Part shown: in pieces, positions 1,501-12,843 of the stretch
How the letters are laid out: each line of letters starts with the position of its first letter
Numbering within the stretch: the first letter of the stretch is position 1
Assembly (NCBI GenBank): GCA_022825065.1
Contig: JAJDYR010000022.1
Coordinates: 1-64,000, forward strand
Direction: 5' to 3'
Source: a bacterium
Lineage (GTDB): Bacteria > UBA8248
Length of the DNA: 64,000 nucleotides
Position numbers and translations under genes: made by a program
The notes under the pieces: model-generated
Database searches by the model: none
Seen by the model: only the letters and a program-made list of their open reading frames with translations
Told to the model about the DNA's origin: nothing

Positions 1501-2220
1501 ATGGCAATTCGCATCGTGGATTTATCGCAGGAGATTTATGACGGGATGCCCGTATACCCCGGCCACCAGCGGACGGGGGTTTTCCCCAACAAGACGCACG
1601 CGGAGACGGCCAAGGCCTATGCGAACTCGCCCTCGGGCCATACCTCGACGACGAACTGCCTCGTGATGAGCGACCACGGCCCCACGCACGTGGACGCCTT
1701 CTACCACATCGACAAGGACGGGGAGACCATCGACGAACTGGGCCTCGAGTGGTTCTACAACGAGGCGATTTGCCTGGATCTCTCGAAATTCTGCAACACC
1801 GAGGACTGGATGGAGCCGGCCGACCTGGAAGAGGCGTGCGCCAGGGCGAATCTGGAAGTCCCCGACAAGGGAACCGTGCTCATCTGGACGGGCCACTACG
1901 AGGCGAACTACGGCGGCGATTTCCACACCTGGCTTCATGTCTATCCGGGTCTCTCCGAAGCCGCGATGAACTGGCTCGCGGACAGGGGTTGCATCAACGT
2001 CGGCATCGATTCGCCCAGCGTCGATTCCTCACAGGCCTTCCGCGACAAGGGCTACTGGGCCCATAAAGTCTGCCGGGAGCGCAAGGTGCTGAACGTGGAA
2101 AACCTGGCGAACCTCAAAGAGGTGGTGAACACGAAGTTCATCTTCTCGTGCCTGCCGCTCAAGATACGAGGCGGAACGGGTTCGCCCATTCGCGCCGTGG
2201 CGATTTATCACGGCGAGTGA
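1501..2220 (+). CDS. Cyclase-family (kynurenine formamidase-like) hydrolase
   Basis: A 239-residue member of the cyclase/KynB fold family (Pfam Cyclase), metal-dependent hydrolases acting on amides, imides or lactones. The family metal signature HGTHxDxPxH appears as SDHGPTHVDAFYHI (about residues 58-71), and the C-terminal GGTGSPIRAVA loop is typical. The start at 1501 is chosen because AACTGGAGAGAAAGAC supplies a good ribosome site and MAIRIVDLSQEIYDGMPVYPG is the canonical family N terminus; the open frame upstream runs through repeats. The stop is one base from the next start, so it is probably co-translated with the GrdC-like gene. Placement at the head of a reductase operon suggests it prepares or removes a ring or amide substrate; that is inference. 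Confidence 0.88.
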   Translation: MAIRIVDLSQEIYDGMPVYPGHQRTGVFPNKTHAETAKAYANSPSGHTSTTNCLVMSDHGPTHVDAFYHIDKDGETIDELGLEWFYNEAICLDLSKFCNTEDWMEPADLEEACARANLEVPDKGTVLIWTGHYEANYGGDFHTWLHVYPGLSEAAMNWLADRGCINVGIDSPSVDSSQAFRDKGYWAHKVCRERKVLNVENLANLKEVVNTKFIFSCLPLKIRGGTGSPIRAVAIYHGE

Positions 2221-2221
2221 T

Positions 2222-3640
2222 ATGACGGCCTACTTGCGCGCGGCGGCGAACGTCCTCGTTCACGTTCCCGATCTGGTTCGCTACGGCTCGAAGCCCTGGC
2301 GCGAAACGTCAAGCAGCAATCAGGCTCCGGGCGACGTATTCGCCAACCTCCGCTCTTTTGATGAAGCCGTCGGCTACCCGCCGAACCAGGCATTCATCGG
2401 AAACCTGCCGCCCGAGAATCTGGGCGAAATCCCGGCTCCCTGGTACGAAAATCCCCTCGCAGGCGCTTCGCCTGAGGGCCATTTCGGGGAAATCCTCCCG
2501 CAGGATGCTTTCTGCGCGCTTCTGGAAGCCGCCGATCAGTTCGGGTTGATCATGCTCGATAAGGAGCGCCCTGTTCCGGGCGCCGTGGGTTCTGAGGCCG
2601 CCACGGCGCTTCTGAAAAAAGAAAACCCCTCGAAGGAATACGGAGAAGAAGACATTTCCCGGCGCATCGAGGGGGGCGAGGCTTTGCCTCTGTTTCAGGA
2701 GGGGGAGATCATCGGTTGCGTTCGGCGCGATCACGATTCGGACGAGTCCCTGGATGCCCGAATCCTGTTGGAAAACCTCTCGGCCAAGGCCAGCGGCGCA
2801 TACGCGCTCAGCCGGCTTCTCATGCAAGAGCGCATCGCTCCCGAGCACGTAGAATACGTCATCAGTTGCTCGGAAGAGGCGGTCGGGGATCGCTACAACC
2901 GAGGCGGCGGCAATCTCGCAAAGACGATTGCCGAGATGGCGGGCTGCGCCAATGCGGCCGGCGTGGACGTGAAGTCCTTCTGTGCGGCGCCGGTCTACGC
3001 GCTCGTGCACGCGGCGGCCCTGATCGAGGCGGGCGTCGTTGAGAACGCCGTCGTCGTGGGCGGCGGTTCGATGGCGAAGCTCGGCATGAAGGCGTATTTC
3101 CATCTGGAAAAGGGGATGCCCGTCCTGGAAGACGCACTCGGCGGTGTGGCGTTCTTGCTCACGAAAAACCCGGACGCCGGCCCACGGGTGAATCTCGAGG
3201 TCGCCGGACGCCACGCGGCGGGAAAGCCCTCCACACCGCAAGGGCTGGCCGAGGCGCTGGTGCGCGACCCGCTGGCCCGCGCCGGGCGCAAGATTGCGAG
3301 CGTCGATAAGTACGCCGTCGAACTGCACAATCCGGAGATCATGCTGCCGGCAGGGGCGGGCGACGTGGCGGCCGCGAACTACAGGATGCTGGCCGCCCTG
3401 GCGGTCATGGGCGGGGAAATCGCCCGCGAGGAGATACCGGACTTCGTCGAAACGCACGGGATGCCCGGTTTCGCGCCCACGCAGGGGCACATTCCCGCGG
3501 GCGTTCCCTTTCTCGGCCATGCGCTCGAGAGGATGCGGGCAGGAAGCCTACGGAGTACAATGGTCGTCGCCAAAGGGAGTCTGTTTCTGGGCCGGATGTC
3601 CCGGCAGGCAGACGGGGCTTCGGTGCTGATAGAAGGGTGA
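2222..3640 (+). CDS. grdC: GrdC-like component C beta subunit (FabH/thiolase fold)
   Basis: 472 residues resembling GrdC, the beta subunit of glycine/sarcosine/betaine reductase component C, which takes the carboxymethyl group from selenoprotein A and, with GrdD, releases acetyl phosphate. The thiolase-fold core is recognisable: [21 protein letters not shown] (209-229), the probable acyl-accepting Cys254 in [12 protein letters not shown], and the C-terminal [16 protein letters not shown] and [16 protein letters not shown] segments. It is slightly shorter than the clostridial protein as I recall it (about 510). ATG 2222 lies immediately after the cyclase stop. No GrdD (PlsX-like alpha subunit) gene lies nearby, so what releases the product is unclear. 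Confidence 0.85.
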
Positions 3641-3675
3641 TTCATTCGTTTTTTGTAAGAAAGTGGAGGAAATCC

Positions 3676-4128
3676 ATGTTCAAGGGAAAGAAGGTGATCG
3701 CGCTGGGCGAGCGCGACGGCGTTCCCGGCCCGCTGATCGCCGAGTGCCTCGAGGCGGCTGGGGCGGAGGTCGTGTTCCAGAAGACGGAGTGTTTCGTCTG
3801 AACCTCCGCGGGCGCCATGGACCTGGAGAACCAGGCCGCCATCAAGTCGATCGCCGATGATATCGGGTCGGAGAACCTGATGGTGGTATTGGGAATGCCC
3901 GGTGAAGGCCTTCGGCTCGCCGTCGAAACGCTGACCACCGGAGACCCGAGCTGGGCCGGGCCCCTGGCGGGAGTCTCGTTGGGACTCCCCGTTTTTCACA
4001 TCCTGGAAGAAACTGTGCGAGCCGAGGTTCCCGGAGACTTGTACGCCGACAAGCTGCTCATGATGGAGATGGTGCTCGATTTGCCGCAGATAGAAAGCGA
4101 CCTCGCCGATATGCGCGCGGCGGGGTAG
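3676..4128 (+). CDS. grdA: GrdA-like selenoprotein A (TGA 3799-3801 = selenocysteine)
   Basis: Reading through TGA at 3799-3801 gives a 150-residue protein that matches GrdA, the small redox carrier of glycine reductase, over its full length. N terminus [19 protein letters not shown], redox centre [16 protein letters not shown] with Cys39 and Sec42, then [20 protein letters not shown] and MMEMVLDLP. In the family, Sec carries the carboxymethyl selenoether intermediate and C-x-x-U is oxidised then reduced by thioredoxin. Both halves are in the same frame and the homology crosses the TGA without a gap. A ribosome site (GTGGAGGAA) precedes ATG 3676. It sits 35 bases after grdC and 9 before grdE. 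The alternative, a nonsense mutation, is unlikely because codons after the TGA are fully conserved. Confidence 0.93.
3799..3835 (+). promoter_or_regulatory. Selenocysteine codon and SECIS-like hairpin of grdA
   Basis: TGA at 3799-3801 is followed 20 bases later by a perfect 5-bp stem CCTGG/CCAGG (3822-3826 and 3831-3835) around the tetraloop AGAA. Bacterial SECIS elements place an apical loop containing G roughly 16-37 bases after the Sec codon, to be bound by SelB; this one begins 25 bases after it. The hairpin lies within conserved coding sequence (DLENQ), so part of the pairing may be coincidental. Confidence 0.65.
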
Positions 4129-4137
4129 GGGGGAGCG

Positions 4138-5421
4138 ATGTCCATGCGACTCGAAATGGGTTTATTTCCCGTATCAGGAATCATCGTCGGAAACCGGTTC
4201 GAATACAAAGACGAAACGCTCACCGTGGATGCCGATGAGCTGCGTGAACTCGCGCTCGAAGAAGGCGACCTCAAGGACGTGTGCTTTGACGCAGCGGCGC
4301 CGGGCGATTCAGTGAGGATCACCAACGTCCTGGACGCCGTCGAGCCGCTCTACAAGGTAAGCGGGCGCTCTTGCGCATTTCCGGGGTTTCTCGGCCCGGC
4401 GAAGACCGCAGGAGAGGGCCGCACCCACAAGCTGGCCGGCATGTGCGTCATCAGCTCCACCCGTTTCCTGGGGCCCATGACGGGCATCATGAGCTTTCGC
4501 GAGGGGATCATCGACATGTCCGGCCCGGGTGTTGCGCACTGCACGAATTCGGAGACCGCGAACCTCGTCGCCTGCTACGAGCCGCTGGAGGACGCATCGA
4601 ACGAAGCGCACGACGACGCCGTCCGCCTGGCGACGCTTAAAATCGCCTCCCGGCTGGCCGAGCGCACGGCGGAACTCGAACCCGTCAGGCTTGAAACCTT
4701 CGAACTCGGCGACGTCGACCCCGATCTCCCCCGGGTGGTTTTCGTCGATCAGGTCATGCACCAGGCGTCCATGGTGCAGACGTTCATGTACGGCAAGAAC
4801 CTGGGGGATTCGCTCCCCACGCTCATCCACCCCAACGAGATGCTCGACGGCGCGGTGGTGGGGGCGAACTACAAGACGCAGCAGAAGGCGCCGACCTACC
4901 TCCACTGCAACATGCCGCTCATCTACGAGCTCTACCGCCGCCACGGGGTGGACCTGAATTTCACGGGGGTGATCATCACGCGCGGCCACCACGACAACCA
5001 GGCGCTCAAGGAGCGCTCGGGGCACTACGTGGCCAAGCTCGCCACCCTCTTGAAGGCGGACGGCGCGGTCCTCGCCTTCGAGGGCGGCGGCAACTCCACG
5101 GTGGACTACTGGCTCACCGTCCAGGCGCTCGAGCAGATGGGCGTGCGCGCCGTTCCGATCATCTACGAGGTGGGCCGGCCGGGTTCGGGCGAGTTCCCGC
5201 TCGTCTTTCACGTGCCCGAGGCCGACGCCGTCATCTCCAAGGGCATGCAGGGGGAGCGCATCGACGCCCCGGCGATGGAGCGGGTCATCGGCTCGGAAGT
5301 CGTCGAGTTCTACAACGGCAAGCGCGTCAACACCCGCGAGGCCTTCACCCTGGTCGACAGCGACTACTACGCCAGCGAGTGGGCGAAGGACATCAACAAC
5401 ATGGTGGGCAAGGATTATTGA
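4138..5421 (+). CDS. grdE: GrdE-like component B alpha subunit (processing site absent)
   Basis: 427 residues homologous to the GrdE proprotein of glycine/sarcosine/betaine reductase component B: MRLEMGLFPV N terminus, GRTHKLAGMCVI, EGIIDMSGPGVAHC, LIHPNEMLDGAVVGAN, YELYRRHGVDLNFTGVIIT. Classical GrdE is cleaved between Asn and Cys to give a pyruvoyl group that binds the amine substrate. Here the aligned site reads Asn244-Tyr245 (GANYKTQQ), and the nearest cysteine is Cys257. The protein therefore probably stays uncleaved and should not form a Schiff base with an amine. That alignment is from memory of the clostridial sequence. Start 4138 follows GGGGGGAG closely; ATG 4144 is an alternative. 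Confidence 0.85.
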   Translation: MSMRLEMGLFPVSGIIVGNRFEYKDETLTVDADELRELALEEGDLKDVCFDAAAPGDSVRITNVLDAVEPLYKVSGRSCAFPGFLGPAKTAGEGRTHKLAGMCVISSTRFLGPMTGIMSFREGIIDMSGPGVAHCTNSETANLVACYEPLEDASNEAHDDAVRLATLKIASRLAERTAELEPVRLETFELGDVDPDLPRVVFVDQVMHQASMVQTFMYGKNLGDSLPTLIHPNEMLDGAVVGANYKTQQKAPTYLHCNMPLIYELYRRHGVDLNFTGVIITRGHHDNQALKERSGHYVAKLATLLKADGAVLAFEGGGNSTVDYWLTVQALEQMGVRAVPIIYEVGRPGSGEFPLVFHVPEADAVISKGMQGERIDAPAMERVIGSEVVEFYNGKRVNTREAFTLVDSDYYASEWAKDINNMVGKDY

Positions 5422-5482
5422 GAGCGGGAAGCGGTGTTGTGATTTGCCGCTAGTCTTAAAAGTATGGGTATAGGAGTTAAGA

Positions 5483-5761
5483 ATGATTAGAATGAAAATA
5501 TCAGAACAAGAAGCCCAACGTATTCTTTCTCAAATCACACACAAGAGGTTTAAGGAAGGTTTCAAAAAACACTGGCGAAATGGGAGGGGTCCCGTACAGA
5601 AGATTTGTTAGTTGTTCTGTTGGGGAAATAAAAATTTGCAGTGGCCGGAAACCTCACAACAAGTACGTAATGCGTTTGATGCAATATATAGTAAAACCTA
5701 CGATTGGCTAGACAGTAATATTACGATACAGCAGGCATATCTTTTCAGATATGTCGAATAA
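5483..5761 (+). pseudogene. AT-rich broken gene remnant between grdE and grdB
   Basis: The 398 bases separating grdE from grdB are far more AT-rich than either neighbour. A short frame from ATG 5483 (MIRMKISEQEAQRILSQITH, 42 residues) stops at a TAG. In the next frame the sequence continues as RTEDLLVVLLGK and stops. Back in the first frame, further downstream, it reads WPETSQQVRNAFDAIYSKTY and ends with TAA at 5759-5761. These look like pieces of one small protein interrupted by frameshifts. No family is recognised. It may be debris of an insertion that pushed the two component B genes apart. Confidence 0.4.
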
Positions 5762-5819
5762 ACTACAATTACTTGCTTCGAAGATTTGTTTGAACAAGTT
5801 CAATTCAGGAGGCCAGGCC

Positions 5820-7136
5820 ATGAGCGCGAAACTTCGGGTCGTTCACTACTTGAACCAGTTCTTCGCGGGCGTCGGGGGCGAGGAGAGGAGCGATCATCCC
5901 GTATCCGCCCGGCCCGGCCCCGTCGGCCCTGGCGTCTTGCTCGATAAAATCCTGGGCGGGGACGCCGAAGTCGTCGGCACCGTCTTCGCGGGGGACGGCC
6001 TTTTCGCCGAAAACGAGGAGGCTTGCGCCGCAGAAGCTCTCGCTCGGATTCAGGAATACGCGCCTGATCTCCTTATCGCAGGACCCGCCTTCAACGCCGG
6101 GCGCTACGGGCTGGCCTGCGCCGCCGTCTGCCGTGCTGCGGAGGAAGCGGGTGTTCCCGTCGTCACCGCCATGCACCCGGAGAATCCGGGATTTCCCGCC
6201 GCGGGAACGAGCGTCCACACCGTCCCCGCCGCCGATTCCGCCGTCGGCATGGAAGAGGCCCTGGAAGCCGCCGCACGGCTGGGACTCAAGCTCGCCCGCG
6301 GGGATAAGATCGGGAGCGCCGCTGATGAGGGCTACCTCCCGCGGGGGATCCGCTACAACGAAGTCGCGGAACTCCCGACTTCGCGGCGCGCCGTCGACAT
6401 GGTCCTCCGAAAAATCAGAGGCGAGCCCTACCAGACCGAACTCGACGTTCCGACGCTCGAAGAGATAGCGCCCCCTGAGCCCGTCGCCGATCTCAAGAAA
6501 GCCCGCATCGCCATCGTCTCGGAAGGCGGCATGGTTCCTCCCGGCAACCCGGACCGTTTCTCCGGGTCGAGGAACGGGAACTGGGCCACGTATTCCTTCG
6601 AGGGGAAAGACGCGCTTCCGGGCGGCGCGTTCATCTCGATCCACGGGGGCTTCAACACCGTGTTCGTGAACGAGGAGCCCGACCGCATGCTCGCCGTGGA
6701 CGCCTTCCGCAGGCTTGCGGACGAGGGCGAGATCGCCGAGCTTTTCGATGATTTCCTGAGCACCTGCGGGAACGGCGGCGCCTTCGCCGAGATGGACGGC
6801 ATCGGCCGCGCCTGGGCGGCAGAACTCAAAAAGGGCGGGGTGGAGGGCGTCGTGCTCCCCGCCACGTGAGGCACCGGCACGCGCAGCGGGGCTGCGCTGG
6901 CGAGAGCTTTGGAGCGCGAAGGCATCCCCACCGTCATCGTCACCTGCCTGCCCGACGTGGCGCGCGACATCGGGGTCAACCGCATCGTCAACAACCGCGC
7001 CGGGCATTTCCACCATCCTTTCGGCGACCCCTCCCGGACGCCCGAGGCCGAGCGGGAGTGGCGCCTGGGCGCGGCCCGCGCCGCCGTCAAGACGCTCGCC
7101 GAAAGAGTGGACGGCCCCACGGTGTTCGAGTACTAA
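5820..7136 (+). CDS. grdB: GrdB-like selenoprotein B (TGA 6867-6869 = selenocysteine)
   Basis: Reading through TGA 6867-6869 gives 438 residues that align end to end with GrdB, the substrate-specific Sec subunit of glycine/sarcosine/betaine reductase component B. Landmarks: KLRVVHYLNQFFAGVGGEE, VGPG, DLLIAGPAFNAGRYGLACA, AIVSEGGMVPPGNPD, and the Sec site LPATUGTGTRSGAALARALE with Sec350. The downstream part (EREGIPTVIVTCLPDVARDI to GPTVFEY) is conserved in character. Classical GrdB has U-G-T-C-T-R-C; here both cysteines are replaced (Gly353, Ser356). The start at 5820 follows AGGAGG at 5807-5812; the frame upstream to 5751 belongs to the AT-rich remnant. Confidence 0.9.
6867..6897 (+). promoter_or_regulatory. 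Selenocysteine codon and SECIS-like hairpin of grdB
   Basis: After TGA 6867-6869, a perfect 7-bp stem GCGCAGC/GCTGCGC (6881-6887 and 6891-6897) closes a GGG loop that begins 18 bases after the codon. Distance and the G-rich loop fit bacterial SECIS elements recognised by SelB. The stem is stronger than random expectation even in GC-rich DNA. Confidence 0.7.
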
Positions 7137-8260: not shown

Positions 8261-8343
8261 CAGGTACGCAAACATCATGGCTGAGCCTGGAGCTACGTGG
8301 TTTTCTCCGGCTGGTGGCGAAGCCTCATAAACAGAGGACGAAA

Positions 8344-9519
8344 ATGGATTTCACACTCACTCCCGAACAGGTTGAACTCCAAAAAAGGGCGCACGACTTC
8401 GCCGCGCAGGAAATACGCCCCGTCGCGGCGGCGCTCGACAGAGAACCCGACCCGATGAAGCGCTTTCCCTGGGACGTGCTGGAGAAGGGGAGCAGGCTGG
8501 GCTTGAGAACCCTGGCGCTTCCCAAGGCGTTGGGCGGTGCGGGCTGCGATAATCTCACGCTTTGCCTCGTCGGCGAGGAACTCGCCTGGGGCGATATGGG
8601 CACAGCCGTCACCTTCGATCAGACCTGGAAGATATCCCACCTGTTCGACAAGCTGACGAATGACGGCCAGAAGGAGCGTTATCTGAAATCCATTCTGGAA
8701 GACCATCGCTTCCACATGGCCGTCGGGATGACGGAGGAAACCGCCGGATCGGACAACATCATCCCCTACGACAGCCCCGACGCCGGCGTGCGCACGACCG
8801 CCGTGCGCGAGGGGGATGGCTGGATAGCCAACGGGAAGAAGCGGTACATCAGCAACGGCGGAATCGCCAAGCTCTGCATCGTCGCCATGCGGACGGACCC
8901 GACGAAAGGCGTGTCCCAGGGAATGACGTATTTCCTCATCACGCCGGACATGGAGGGTTTCCGGTACGGGAAGATTCACGAAAAAATGGGTCAGCGGCTT
9001 TCCCTGAACGCCGAACTCATTTTTGAGAATTGCCGGATACCGGATGAAAACCGCGTCACGGAAGTGAACCGCGCCATGGAGGCGCGCCGGCAGTTCTTTC
9101 CCGGCTCGAACATAGAAGCGGCCGCCACCGTTCTCGGAACCGCCCGGGCGGCCTATGAAGACGCCCTTACGCACGCGAGGAGCCGGATTCAGGGGGGCAG
9201 GCCGATCATCGAGCATCAGGCGATAGGCTTCATGCTGGCGGATTGTTTCGCCGAGTATGAAGCGAGCCGGAGGCTGCTCCACTACGCCGCCTGGACGGTG
9301 GGCCAGAAAGGCCTATACGACCCCAAGATGGGTTTCATGACCAAGTGTTTCGTGTCCGAATCGTCATATCGAATCGCCACGCGCGCACTGGAGGTCTGGG
9401 GCGGCACCGGTTACATGACGGATGCGCCGATGGAGAAATACATGAGAGACGTGACCAGTTTCCTGCATTCCGACGGAACGAACCAGGTGATGCGCATTCG
9501 TTCCATGAAGTTCTTATAG
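8344..9519 (+). CDS. Acyl-CoA dehydrogenase family flavoprotein
   Basis: 391 residues with the complete acyl-CoA dehydrogenase layout: N-terminal helical domain, FAD/substrate beta domain (AVGMTEETAGSDNI, GWIANGKKRYISNGG), and C-terminal helical domain (ALEVWGGTGYMTDAPMEKYM). The family oxidises acyl-CoA thioesters to enoyl-CoA. The usual catalytic glutamate in YEGT is Asp377 here (HSDGTNQVMRIR). Start 8344 is preceded by ACAGAGGACG; the frame from 8314 adds a basic leader without a ribosome site. It is the first gene of a five-gene operon with spacings of 10, 34, 34 and 3 bases (taking the starts given). The substrate is not predictable from sequence. Confidence 0.9.
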   Translation: MDFTLTPEQVELQKRAHDFAAQEIRPVAAALDREPDPMKRFPWDVLEKGSRLGLRTLALPKALGGAGCDNLTLCLVGEELAWGDMGTAVTFDQTWKISHLFDKLTNDGQKERYLKSILEDHRFHMAVGMTEETAGSDNIIPYDSPDAGVRTTAVREGDGWIANGKKRYISNGGIAKLCIVAMRTDPTKGVSQGMTYFLITPDMEGFRYGKIHEKMGQRLSLNAELIFENCRIPDENRVTEVNRAMEARRQFFPGSNIEAAATVLGTARAAYEDALTHARSRIQGGRPIIEHQAIGFMLADCFAEYEASRRLLHYAAWTVGQKGLYDPKMGFMTKCFVSESSYRIATRALEVWGGTGYMTDAPMEKYMRDVTSFLHSDGTNQVMRIRSMKFL

Positions 9520-9529
9520 CGGAGACGAA

Positions 9530-10618
9530 ATGACAAAATTGGCCATACGCTCACTCGAGGTGATTCCCCTCAAGGTGCCCCTCAAAAAAACATTCCAGAG
9601 CTCGCTCGGCGTGTATACGCATCTCGACGTCGTCGTGGTGCACCTGCATACCGAAGGCGGCCCAAGCGGCACGGGTTTCACGATGGGCCTGGGAGGTGAG
9701 GGCGGCGCCGCCATGCTGCCCTACATCGAAAACGAATTGGCTCCATTGGTGACAGGGCAGGACGCACTGGCCCCCGAGGCGCTTTGGAACCGCATGTGGG
9801 CGCCGAACAAGGCGAGGATGCGAGGCGGCTTGGGCTTGTACTCGCTTTCGGCCGTGGATATCGCCTGCTGGGACATCGTGGCGAAAACAGCCGGCCTCCC
9901 GCTCAATCGCCTGCTGGGCGGGTTCCGCCAGAAAATGCCGGTTTACGGCAGCGGCGGCTGGCACACGCTCCCGGATTCTGAACTTCTCGAAGAAGCCCAG
10001 GAGGCCGCCTCGCTCGGCATGAGCGGCTACAAGCTCAAAATCGGCACGCCGCGCGACGCGGAGCGGCTCGAATACCTCCGCAAGAACATGGGAGAGGATT
10101 TCATTCTCTTTTGCGATGCGAACCAGAACTACAACGTGCGCGAGGCGGTGGAAGTTTCAGCAATGCTGGCGGAATACGGCGTTGCCTGGTTCGAAGAACC
10201 CGTGCTGGCCGATTGCGTCGATGACCTCGCGGAAGTGGCGGAGAAGAGCATGGTGCCCACGGCAGCGGGCGAGAACGCCTACATGCGCTGGGGATTCCGG
10301 GAGATATGCGAGCGCCGCGCGGTGGGCTTTTTGCAGCCCGATGTTTGCCGCTGCGGCGGGGTGACGGAATTCATCAAAATTGCGCATCTGGCCGATGCCT
10401 TCAACATTTCCCTGAGCAGCCATCTGGCGCACGAACTATCGGTCAGCCTCGTGGGCGCAACACCCCGGGGCTATATGGTCGAATACATGGAGTTTTTCTC
10501 TCCCGATGATTTCACGCAGGATTTTTCGGTGCGCGATGGACACATCGATGTCCCCGACGCGCCTGGTCACGGCGTGGAATTCACAACGGATGCACTTGAA
10601 CGCTACAAGGTTTCCTGA
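9530..10618 (+). CDS. Mandelate racemase/muconate lactonizing enzyme-like enolase superfamily protein
   Basis: 362 residues with all enolase-superfamily markers: capping domain, the catalytic K-x-K in GYKLKIG (about 166-168), metal ligands in CDANQNYN, FEEPV and AGENAYM, and the Asp-His pair in LQPDVCRCGG and SSHLAHELS. These are the hallmarks of the mandelate racemase subgroup, which abstracts a proton alpha to a carboxylate. Members dehydrate sugar acids, racemise, or cycloisomerise muconates. The neighbouring FAA hydrolase and CMD-like genes favour a sugar-acid or aromatic-acid route, but the substrate is open. GGAGACGA gives a good ribosome site before ATG 9530. Confidence 0.92.
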   Translation: MTKLAIRSLEVIPLKVPLKKTFQSSLGVYTHLDVVVVHLHTEGGPSGTGFTMGLGGEGGAAMLPYIENELAPLVTGQDALAPEALWNRMWAPNKARMRGGLGLYSLSAVDIACWDIVAKTAGLPLNRLLGGFRQKMPVYGSGGWHTLPDSELLEEAQEAASLGMSGYKLKIGTPRDAERLEYLRKNMGEDFILFCDANQNYNVREAVEVSAMLAEYGVAWFEEPVLADCVDDLAEVAEKSMVPTAAGENAYMRWGFREICERRAVGFLQPDVCRCGGVTEFIKIAHLADAFNISLSSHLAHELSVSLVGATPRGYMVEYMEFFSPDDFTQDFSVRDGHIDVPDAPGHGVEFTTDALERYKVS

Positions 10619-10652
10619 GTTTCCAGGAATCATCCATGGCTAGGAGATGCGA

Positions 10653-11579
10653 ATGAAACTGTTGTCATACAATTACAGAGGTCTTGAGAGGGTCGGCGTT
10701 TATGTGGGCAATCGAATCGCTCACTTATCGCGTCTGGCCGGAATTTTGGGCAGGAGAGAACTCGCGTTCGGCAGTATGATTGAACTCATCAATTCCTGGG
10801 AAACGCATGGACCTGCGCTTCATGAGTTGGTCGCACGGGCGGAGGAAAATGAGAAAGATTTAGCTCCCATCCTCATGGCGCCCGAAGATGTTCATCACAT
10901 ATCCCCGATTCCTCATCCACCCAAGCACGTTCTTTGCATGGGCCTCAACTACCAGGACCATGTAAACGAGGGCCTGCAAGCAAGGGATGTGCAGACGACA
11001 AAGGTTGAACTCGACCACCCCATATTCTTCACCAAGGCCCAGAGCACCCTCATCGGACACAATGAGGGCATACCCGCGCACCGGGTGACGGAAAAACTCG
11101 ATTACGAAGCTGAAATCGCCGTCATCATCGGCAAAAAAGGAAAAAATATCCCCAAGGATGAAGTTTACGGGCACGTCTTCGGCTATTGCTGCGCAAACGA
11201 CATCTCCGCAAGAGATATTCAAAGGCGTCACAAGCAGATTTTCAAGGGCAAAACCCTCGATGGCACATGTCCGCTCGGTCCATACATCGTCCCCAAAGAA
11301 GATTATGGCGACCCGATGAACCAGACCGTAAAGAGCTGGGTGAACGGCGAAGCGCGCCAGGACTCGAACACGAACATGATGATTCACGATATCCCGTCGA
11401 TGCTCTCGGTGCTTTCAGAAGGTTTCACCCTGGAGCCTGGCGATATCTTTTTGACGGGCACGCCCTCCGGTGTGGGATACGCTCGAGAAACACCCTCGTT
11501 TCTAACGCCGGGTGATGTGGTGGAAGTGGAAATCGGTGGACTCGGCCGATTGCGCAACGTGATTATCGAAGCTGACTAG
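10653..11579 (+). CDS. Fumarylacetoacetate hydrolase family protein
   Basis: 308 residues of the FAH family, metal enzymes that hydrolyse, decarboxylate or isomerise oxo-dienoates and acylpyruvates. The catalytic domain starts at PIPHPPKHVLCMGLNYQDH; metal ligands are the acidic pair in KLDYEAEIAVIIG and Asp in CCANDISARDIQ; the C-terminal LEPGDIFLTGTPSGVGYAR loop is typical. ATG 10653 is preferred to 10647 because TAGGAG would abut the earlier codon. Likely acts late in the same degradation route as its neighbours. Confidence 0.9.
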   Translation: MKLLSYNYRGLERVGVYVGNRIAHLSRLAGILGRRELAFGSMIELINSWETHGPALHELVARAEENEKDLAPILMAPEDVHHISPIPHPPKHVLCMGLNYQDHVNEGLQARDVQTTKVELDHPIFFTKAQSTLIGHNEGIPAHRVTEKLDYEAEIAVIIGKKGKNIPKDEVYGHVFGYCCANDISARDIQRRHKQIFKGKTLDGTCPLGPYIVPKEDYGDPMNQTVKSWVNGEARQDSNTNMMIHDIPSMLSVLSEGFTLEPGDIFLTGTPSGVGYARETPSFLTPGDVVEVEIGGLGRLRNVIIEAD

Positions 11580-11613
11580 TGGATTGTGACGTTATACCCA
11601 GGGAGAACGATTG

Positions 11614-12009
11614 ATGACCGAAGAATTTTATCCGCCGGCGATTCGCCGCGGGGATACGCAATACGGAGAAGGATACACGGAAAAACTGTTTGGCCGGCTG
11701 AATAAGCTCGACCCTGATTTCTCCATGCTGTTCCAGCGGTTCGTTCACGGGGGGCTTTACGACCGCGATGTTCTTCCTCACAAGACGAGAGAATTTTGCG
11801 CATTGGCAGCACTGTGCGTCACGGGACGATTCAACCAGATGCGCTCCCATTTCACGGCCGCGCGAAGCTACGGTGCGACGGACAAAGAAATCATGGAGGT
11901 GATTTTTCAGATGTCGCCATACAGCGGAGTTCCCGCCGTTTTAGAGAGCCTCCAGGTATTCGAGGATTGGCTGGAAGCAGGAGGGGCCATGACGGGGTAT
12001 GGGAAATAG
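11614..12009 (+). CDS. Carboxymuconolactone decarboxylase-like protein
   Basis: 131 residues of the CMD/AhpD-like fold: LPHKTREFCALAALCVTGRF, then HFTAARSYGATDKEIMEVIF and SGVPAVLESLQVFEDW. Family members include PcaC and diverse small decarboxylases and alkylhydroperoxidase-like proteins. There is no C-x-x-C of AhpD, so a PcaC-like or unassigned activity is more likely. ATG 11614 has GGGAGAAC upstream. It lies inside the operon, between FAH and SDR genes. Confidence 0.85.
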   Translation: MTEEFYPPAIRRGDTQYGEGYTEKLFGRLNKLDPDFSMLFQRFVHGGLYDRDVLPHKTREFCALAALCVTGRFNQMRSHFTAARSYGATDKEIMEVIFQMSPYSGVPAVLESLQVFEDWLEAGGAMTGYGK

Positions 12010-12012
12010 GCG

Positions 12013-12843
12013 ATGTCTTCTCCACCGGCAAGAGAACGCGGCCTGAAAGGCAAGGTGGCGCTCATCACCGGCGCCGGAGGTGGAATAGGTCGCGGCATCG
12101 CCCGGTGCCTGGCGGAAGAGGGTGTCCATCTGGCATTGGCCGACATCTCAAAATCCGGCGCCGAGGCGGCCGCGGAAGAAATGGAAAAATTCGATATTAG
12201 CGCCGTTCCCTATACGCTCGATGTGACGGACAAGAGTCAATGCGAAGACGTCGTGGATGCGGTCAACAAGAAATTCAGCAGTCTGGATATTGTGGTCAAC
12301 AATGCCGGCGTCATTGGCGGGGCGGATTTCAAGCTGGGCATGCCTCTTTCCGACATCAATGAAGATGATTGGGACGACACGTATAACGTCAACGTAAAAG
12401 GTGTTTTCCTATTGTGCCAAGCCTCGCTTGAAAAAATGAAGGGAAAGGGCTGGGGCCGTATCATCAACATTTCTTCACGCGCCGGGCGTGACGGCCGCGA
12501 AACCATACCGCATTACAGCGCGAGCAAAGCAGCGGTAATTATTTTCACCCAGGCGCTTGCACGTGAAGTAGCGCGAGAAGGCATTACGGTGAACGCAGTC
12601 TGTCCAGGTTTGATTTGGAGCGCAATGTGGAAGCAAATAGCCGAAAAACTCAGAGAAAAATTCCCGAACTTCCAAGGGAAAACAACGAGAGAGATTTTCG
12701 ATGATTTTGTCGAACAAACACCCTTAGGAGTCGAGCAATCGACCGAAGATATCGGGCGAGTGGTCGCCTTTTTAGCGAGCGATGATGCCAAAACTATTAC
12801 AGGTCAAGCCATCCTGGTCGATTCAGGAGCTGTAATGCACTAA
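12013..12843 (+). CDS. Short-chain dehydrogenase/reductase
   Basis: 276 residues of classical SDR type. Cofactor motif TGAGGGIG (about 21-28), Asp at the end of the second strand (LALADIS) which favours NAD(H), NNAG, and catalytic Ser/Tyr/Lys in INISSRAG and HYSASKAAV. The C terminus ITGQAILVDSGAVMH is typical of FabG-like members. Last gene of the operon; three bases after the CMD-like stop. Probably oxidises an alcohol intermediate of the shared pathway. Confidence 0.92.
   Translation: MSSPPARERGLKGKVALITGAGGGIGRGIARCLAEEGVHLALADISKSGAEAAAEEMEKFDISAVPYTLDVTDKSQCEDVVDAVNKKFSSLDIVVNNAGVIGGADFKLGMPLSDINEDDWDDTYNVNVKGVFLLCQASLEKMKGKGWGRIINISSRAGRDGRETIPHYSASKAAVIIFTQALAREVAREGITVNAVCPGLIWSAMWKQIAEKLREKFPNFQGKTTREIFDDFVEQTPLGVEQSTEDIGRVVAFLASDDAKTITGQAILVDSGAVMH

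Follow-up and report, generated by a model that had tools for sequence, protein, structure and literature searches.

The four genes grdC, grdA, grdE and grdB at positions 2222-7136 of the window (the whole stretch of 64,000 nucleotides analysed here: contig JAJDYR010000022.1, positions 1 to 64,000, assembly GCA_022825065.1, from a bacterium of the phylum UBA8248) appear to encode a relative of the glycine, sarcosine and betaine reductases that operates without GrdD and without a pyruvoyl group, and that would pass its acyl-GrdC intermediate to coenzyme A (CoA). We give this reading, taken whole, about an even chance. The phylum, which recently received the name Spongiamicota because it is abundant in sponges (PMC11920076), is little known and largely sponge-associated; the GrdD-less type spans other phyla as well. 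That the window holds a divergent, Grd-type selenoenzyme, a related reductase rather than a classical one, was already the thrust of a preliminary description of this DNA, and it is borne out: all four proteins form clades of their own, GrdD is absent, and so is the pyruvoyl site. (In what follows the window's genome is G000, its contig C20; the sister genome G008 is L016/L105.)

Protein C is described as an acetyl phosphate-forming assembly of GrdC and GrdD (PMC9908766). GrdD was sought genome by genome with the model NF040747, and acetate kinase with PF00871. The absence of GrdD from the neighborhood of the cluster had been noted before; the search now extends it to the entire genome of the window, in which no grdD, with a matched phylogeny or otherwise, was found, and to the relatives of the same type. 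Within the window's phylum NF040747 returns only PlsX-level matches of 30 bits or less, and it returns no match at all in five GrdC-positive genomes of two other phyla (G065, G112, G250, G386 and G387). GrdD is thus missing from 19 of 19 GrdC-positive genomes of the GrdD-less type tested, in three phyla in all; because these genomes are 67-98% complete, the probability of its chance absence from every one is negligible. All GrdD-plus genomes carry GrdD next to GrdC (at 494-586 bits in G053, G090 and G276), and it is also present in the reference records of A. noterae, Photobacterium and E. gilvus.

GrdC differs according to whether GrdD accompanies it. The GrdC tree places 18 GrdD-less genomes and 6 GrdD-plus records on opposite sides of a single branch (support 100/99), and the trees of GrdA, GrdE and GrdB likewise need a single change in GrdD status, with weaker support (for the GrdD-plus rows as one side: 100/99 for C, 94/83 for E, 85/81 for B, 82/86 for A). 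The suggestion that GrdE and GrdB of this kind form their own clade consequently holds, and holds for GrdC and GrdA besides; on none of the four trees do these proteins cluster inside the classical clade. The window's GrdC, a component C β subunit of the GrdD-less type (2222-3640, forward strand, like every gene of the cluster), scores 580 bits against NF040746 (cut-off 450). GrdD-less proteins are without a C-terminal tail of ~40 residues: beyond the conserved DG.S motif they extend for 5-16 residues, GrdD-plus proteins for 38-45. Eleven alignment columns separate the two groups; six of these, close to Cys254, fall within 215-232 and at 251, and their changes (GrdD-plus to GrdD-less) include Val or Ile for the Cys of EEACGD, and RY for MN. 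Cys254 itself (2981-2983) is invariant in 16 of 16 GrdC sequences and aligns with the nucleophile of ketoacyl synthase III (KAS III, or FabH), both in a FabH profile (hhalign, 97.9% probability) and in PDB structures, 1mzj and 4ylt among them. The gene had been recognized earlier as GrdC-like, correctly; what had gone unnoticed was the change in GrdC that goes with GrdD status, the spread of the type to other phyla, and the lack of acetate kinase.

Acetate kinase was not found in any of the 20 genomes searched from GrdD-less lineages, 18 of them GrdC-positive; three of four GrdD-plus genomes have it. With neither GrdD nor acetate kinase, the GrdD-less lineages lack the protein that makes acetyl phosphate as well as the one that normally consumes it. 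Where, then, might the acyl group go? FabH, in its first half-reaction, exchanges acyl groups between CoA and its active-site Cys; with GrdD missing, and with this half-reaction as a parallel, discharge of acyl-GrdC to CoA is proposed, which would fit the kinship of GrdC with KAS III.

The sequence of events that we envisage would begin with binding by GrdE-GrdB of an acetate-type substrate bearing a good leaving group on C2 (a quaternary amine, sulfonium, halide or similar) and needing no Schiff-base activation. By analogy with the known reductases, the GrdB selenolate would displace the leaving group, generating a carboxymethyl-type selenoether, and the two-carbon unit would move to the selenocysteine (Sec) of GrdA, whose CxxU motif is intact; GrdA chemistry would then take the unit to the acyl level for capture on Cys254 of GrdC, with GrdA re-reduced by thioredoxin or an equivalent. 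In the last step, the most conjectural of the series, acyl-GrdC would be discharged to CoA instead of phosphate, yielding acyl-CoA and no acetyl phosphate. A more specific version, somewhat less probable than not in our judgment, makes the system a selenium-dependent reductive acyl-CoA synthase: a KAS III-type GrdC loads the two-carbon unit, freed reductively on the GrdA Sec, onto CoA, or else condenses it with another acyl group. If true, bacteria of several phyla, themselves without acetate kinase, would have a reductase of C-N, C-S or C-halogen bonds that feeds directly into CoA metabolism.

Several observations weigh against transfer to CoA. The case for CoA as acceptor is indirect: no CoA-site residues were identified in GrdC, and the AlphaFold model of GrdC, made from an 8-row alignment, is too poor to use (predicted local distance difference test, pLDDT, 43). 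Nor does GrdC show a clear equivalent of the catalytic His of FabH; in a low-identity alignment its AAAN stands opposite the HQAN region. The residues that separate the two kinds of GrdC are not independent evidence, being a single change on the tree. GrdD-plus G090 is also devoid of acetate kinase, and the absence of this enzyme may merely reflect lifestyle.

Two other fates of the acyl group therefore deserve a hearing. One is hydrolysis of acyl-GrdC to the free acid, which the joint absence of GrdD and acetate kinase would suit, and for which fluoroacetate reductase, FarE/FarB, offers a precedent in lacking pyruvoyl site and CxxC alike (PMC10838667). But if hydrolysis is all that happens, why keep GrdC? 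It is retained in every genome with its invariant nucleophile Cys, which plain hydrolysis would not need, and D-proline reductase has no GrdC; we consider hydrolysis unlikely. The other, less likely still, is an ordinary Grd complex that forms acetyl phosphate, the role of GrdD having passed to some unrelated phosphotransacetylase-like protein from another locus. GrdC does remain well above its NF040746 cut-off, and the genome searches, made family by family, could have passed over a phosphotransacylase; however, there is no acetate kinase to consume the product, no neighboring gene is conserved across genera, and GrdC is without a tail of the kind seen only together with GrdD. Discharge to CoA remains the reading that we prefer.

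The GrdE-like subunit of the window's component B (4138-5421; PF09338, 355 bits) falls below all curated GrdG, FarE and PrdA cut-offs, and a PDB search with it found no relative. Where classical GrdE/GrdG has SGNC it has GANYKTQQ, with Asn244-Tyr245 (4867-4872) in place of the Asn-Cys pair that forms the pyruvoyl group, and the pair is missing from all GrdD-less GrdE-type proteins: the earlier statement that GrdE lacks its processing pair was right for the window and applies to the whole type. Since there is no pyruvoyl site, the substrate is likely to be of a different kind, one needing no Schiff base. The GrdB-like selenoprotein (5820-7136; PF07355, 396 bits; TIGR01918, 410 bits) does not reach the cut-offs of the models specific for glycine, sarcosine or betaine. 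It has lost the CxxC (UGTGTRS for UGTCTRC), just as the preliminary description said, but this loss is not general: other GrdD-less GrdB proteins retain one or both cysteines, so that it marks the window's subclade and a few others. Second GrdB copies in G112 and G250 (L135, L137) share UGTGTRS and join the window's clade (100/99); the change of CGD to AGD in GrdB is confined to the window's genus and G015.

Three E-B modules occur alongside a single GrdC in G065 and again in G112, an arrangement known from classical systems, in which A and C are common to several B components; one GrdC-GrdA pair could in this way serve several substrate-specific GrdE-GrdB modules per genome. A second GrdE-GrdB type (GrdB motif UGTSTRS) occurs in genera g3/g6 (L138, L139, L140, L141 and L108, in G010, G014, G017, G013 and G015, respectively), always directly preceded by a gene for a DUF255/thioredoxin-like protein (PF03190, ~500 amino acids) that may act as reductant. 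In two phyla, genes for hydantoinase A and B are found close to GrdE-GrdB modules (L140 15176-17998, L141 8246-12388 and L133 10336-14288), recalling the route from creatinine or N-methylhydantoin to sarcosine.

Both selenocysteines are kept, as first described. The in-frame TGA of grdA (gene 3676-4128; PF04723; NF040748, 198 bits, cut-off 130) lies at 3799-3801 in the CxxU motif CFVU, and that of grdB at 6867-6869 in the context PATUGTGTRSG; each falls on a Sec column occupied by TGA in every relative (26 GrdA and 29 GrdB rows). The genome encodes the corresponding machinery: tRNA-Sec (the selC product; RF01852, 75.9 bits), SelB (387 bits) and SelA (578 bits), with selA close to selB. Bacterial selenocysteine insertion sequence (SECIS) hairpins were looked for in 50-nucleotide folds after the UGA; these are no better than shuffled sequences, and those of known selenoprotein genes are no better either. 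(Two further details: a megaplasmid of Photobacterium sp. DA100 (L045 3664-4595) carries two tandem grdA selenoprotein genes within a complete Grd cluster; and in G010 (L097 5337-6461) the GrdB frame ceases to match the family immediately past its Sec codon, which is probably due to a frameshift or an assembly break near the contig end.)

In genera g1, g2, g3, g5 and g6 of the phylum the order C-A-E-B is found on every contig of sufficient length, with proteins 58-96% identical to those of the window; all 18 genomes of the phylum in the comparison set belong to one family. In G112 and G250 the order is B-E-C-A, and in the phylum of G112 an EVE-domain-like gene comes after grdA (L089, L090, L129). 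Profile searches confirmed the families and coordinates of the five-gene, single-strand cluster originally delineated, which adds to these four a PF04199 cyclase-family metal hydrolase (1501-2220), a relative of kynurenine formamidase and isatin hydrolase with the metal-type motif HGPTHVDAFYH. It is the four-gene order that recurs, and the cyclase accompanies it outside the window's genome only in G008.

Could the cyclase, as initially conceived, stand in the place of GrdD or produce the substrate of the reductase? It ends 1 bp before grdC both in the window and in G008, and in the window's genome it is probably co-transcribed with the grd genes, although outside the conserved unit. Yet among the 12 genomes whose upstream side is visible these are the only two, closely related, in which it adjoins grdC, and it is not at that position in any other relative, not even in congeners with Grd proteins 86-96% identical to those of the window; what precedes grdC is a short-chain dehydrogenase in congeners G004, G005 and G007, a sensor kinase in genera g3/g6 (a large GAF/PAS hybrid histidine kinase in L097, L098, L103 and L106), and something unrelated in others. 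When the relatives' loci were compared for clues to the substrate, no neighbor of C-A-E-B conserved across genera was found. The conserved unit accordingly comprises four genes; "cyclase in place of GrdD" fails, the cyclase was rejected as a conserved partner, and its membership of the system or supply of the substrate is unsupported. As a general rule the cyclase-coupled reading is largely refuted, and we regard it as quite improbable. Downstream, at 8314-12843, the window has a run of genes for an acyl-CoA dehydrogenase, an enolase-superfamily protein, a FAH hydrolase, a carboxymuconolactone-decarboxylase-family protein and a short-chain dehydrogenase. This set, otherwise seen only in G008, was likewise considered and is too thin a clue to name a substrate; an acyl-CoA dehydrogenase 63% identical to the window's adjoins the second-type GrdE-GrdB in G014 (L139).

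Between grdE and grdB lies an AT-rich insertion remnant (5422-5819, no strand assigned). The junction is an insertion site: the gap is 37-275 bp in most relatives of the GrdD-less type, 398 bp in the window, and 3.76 kb in G004 (L020 4241-8001), where it holds a PIN-domain gene and a partner open reading frame with the look of a toxin-antitoxin pair; L017 515-2553 is another instance. Such insertions in some genomes, and the GrdB disrupted after its Sec codon in G010, might suggest that the genes are decaying and no longer serve a function; this is very improbable, since the reading frames are open, and the Sec codons and Cys254 of GrdC conserved, across five genera and in other phyla.

As described, component C consists of GrdC and GrdD, and the acetyl phosphate that it makes yields ATP. 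A lineage-wide Grd system with GrdC and with neither GrdD nor acetate kinase would mean that the chemistry of selenium need not be tied to substrate-level phosphorylation and can perhaps be linked to CoA instead. Annotation pipelines would name these GrdC and GrdA genes as components of glycine/sarcosine/betaine reductase, and metabolic models of sponge symbionts would therefore predict acetyl phosphate formation that the genes do not support. One can also think of the GrdD-less type as a natural experiment on the roles of GrdD and of the GrdC tail.

How does the window's system compare with those already known? It shares with glycine/sarcosine reductase (GrdE/GrdB or GrdG/GrdF with GrdA, GrdC and GrdD; Peptoclostridium, Acetoanaerobium) the A + B + C architecture, the CxxU Sec of GrdA, the Sec of GrdB, a GrdE homologue and the KAS III-type Cys of GrdC; it differs in lacking GrdD, the Asn-Cys site of GrdE, the CxxC after the Sec of GrdB, the tail and EEACGD Cys of GrdC, and acetate kinase. 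GrdC resembles KAS III/FabH and the wider thiolase superfamily in its core and aligned nucleophile Cys, and differs in some 180 extra N-terminal residues, a C-terminal DUF5940 domain and the want of an obvious HQAN-type His. D-proline reductase is remote: the PrdAB models TIGR04480 and TIGR04483 score 28 bits (cut-off 700) and 82 bits (cut-off 300). In component B of betaine reductase (GrdI/GrdH; Enterococcus gilvus, L046), GrdI also lacks the Asn-Cys pair (it has SGSF) and so has no pyruvoyl group, but GrdH retains UxxCxxC, grdD lies beside grdC, and the proteins group with the GrdD-plus side on trees (moderate support); the GrdH model NF040795 gives the window's GrdB 350 bits, below its cut-off of 775. 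FarE/FarB of Cloacibacillus porcorum is similar, FarE having no processing cysteines and FarB no CxxC, with selenolate attack and no Schiff base (PMC10838667). In the scheme proposed for Far, however, it delivers to the shared proteins A and C of a grdD-bearing host; the window's GrdE scores 126.5 bits against NF053623 (cut-off 675), and the window's cluster has no antiporter or radical SAM neighbors. The missing pair and the missing CxxC, first put forward as distinctive marks, are consequently not unique to this system. For GrdC without GrdD we found no report in the open-licence literature on glycine reductase, GrdD and UBA8248/Tectomicrobia/sponge bacteria, so that its novelty is provisional; it is this GrdC without GrdD that constitutes the new part.

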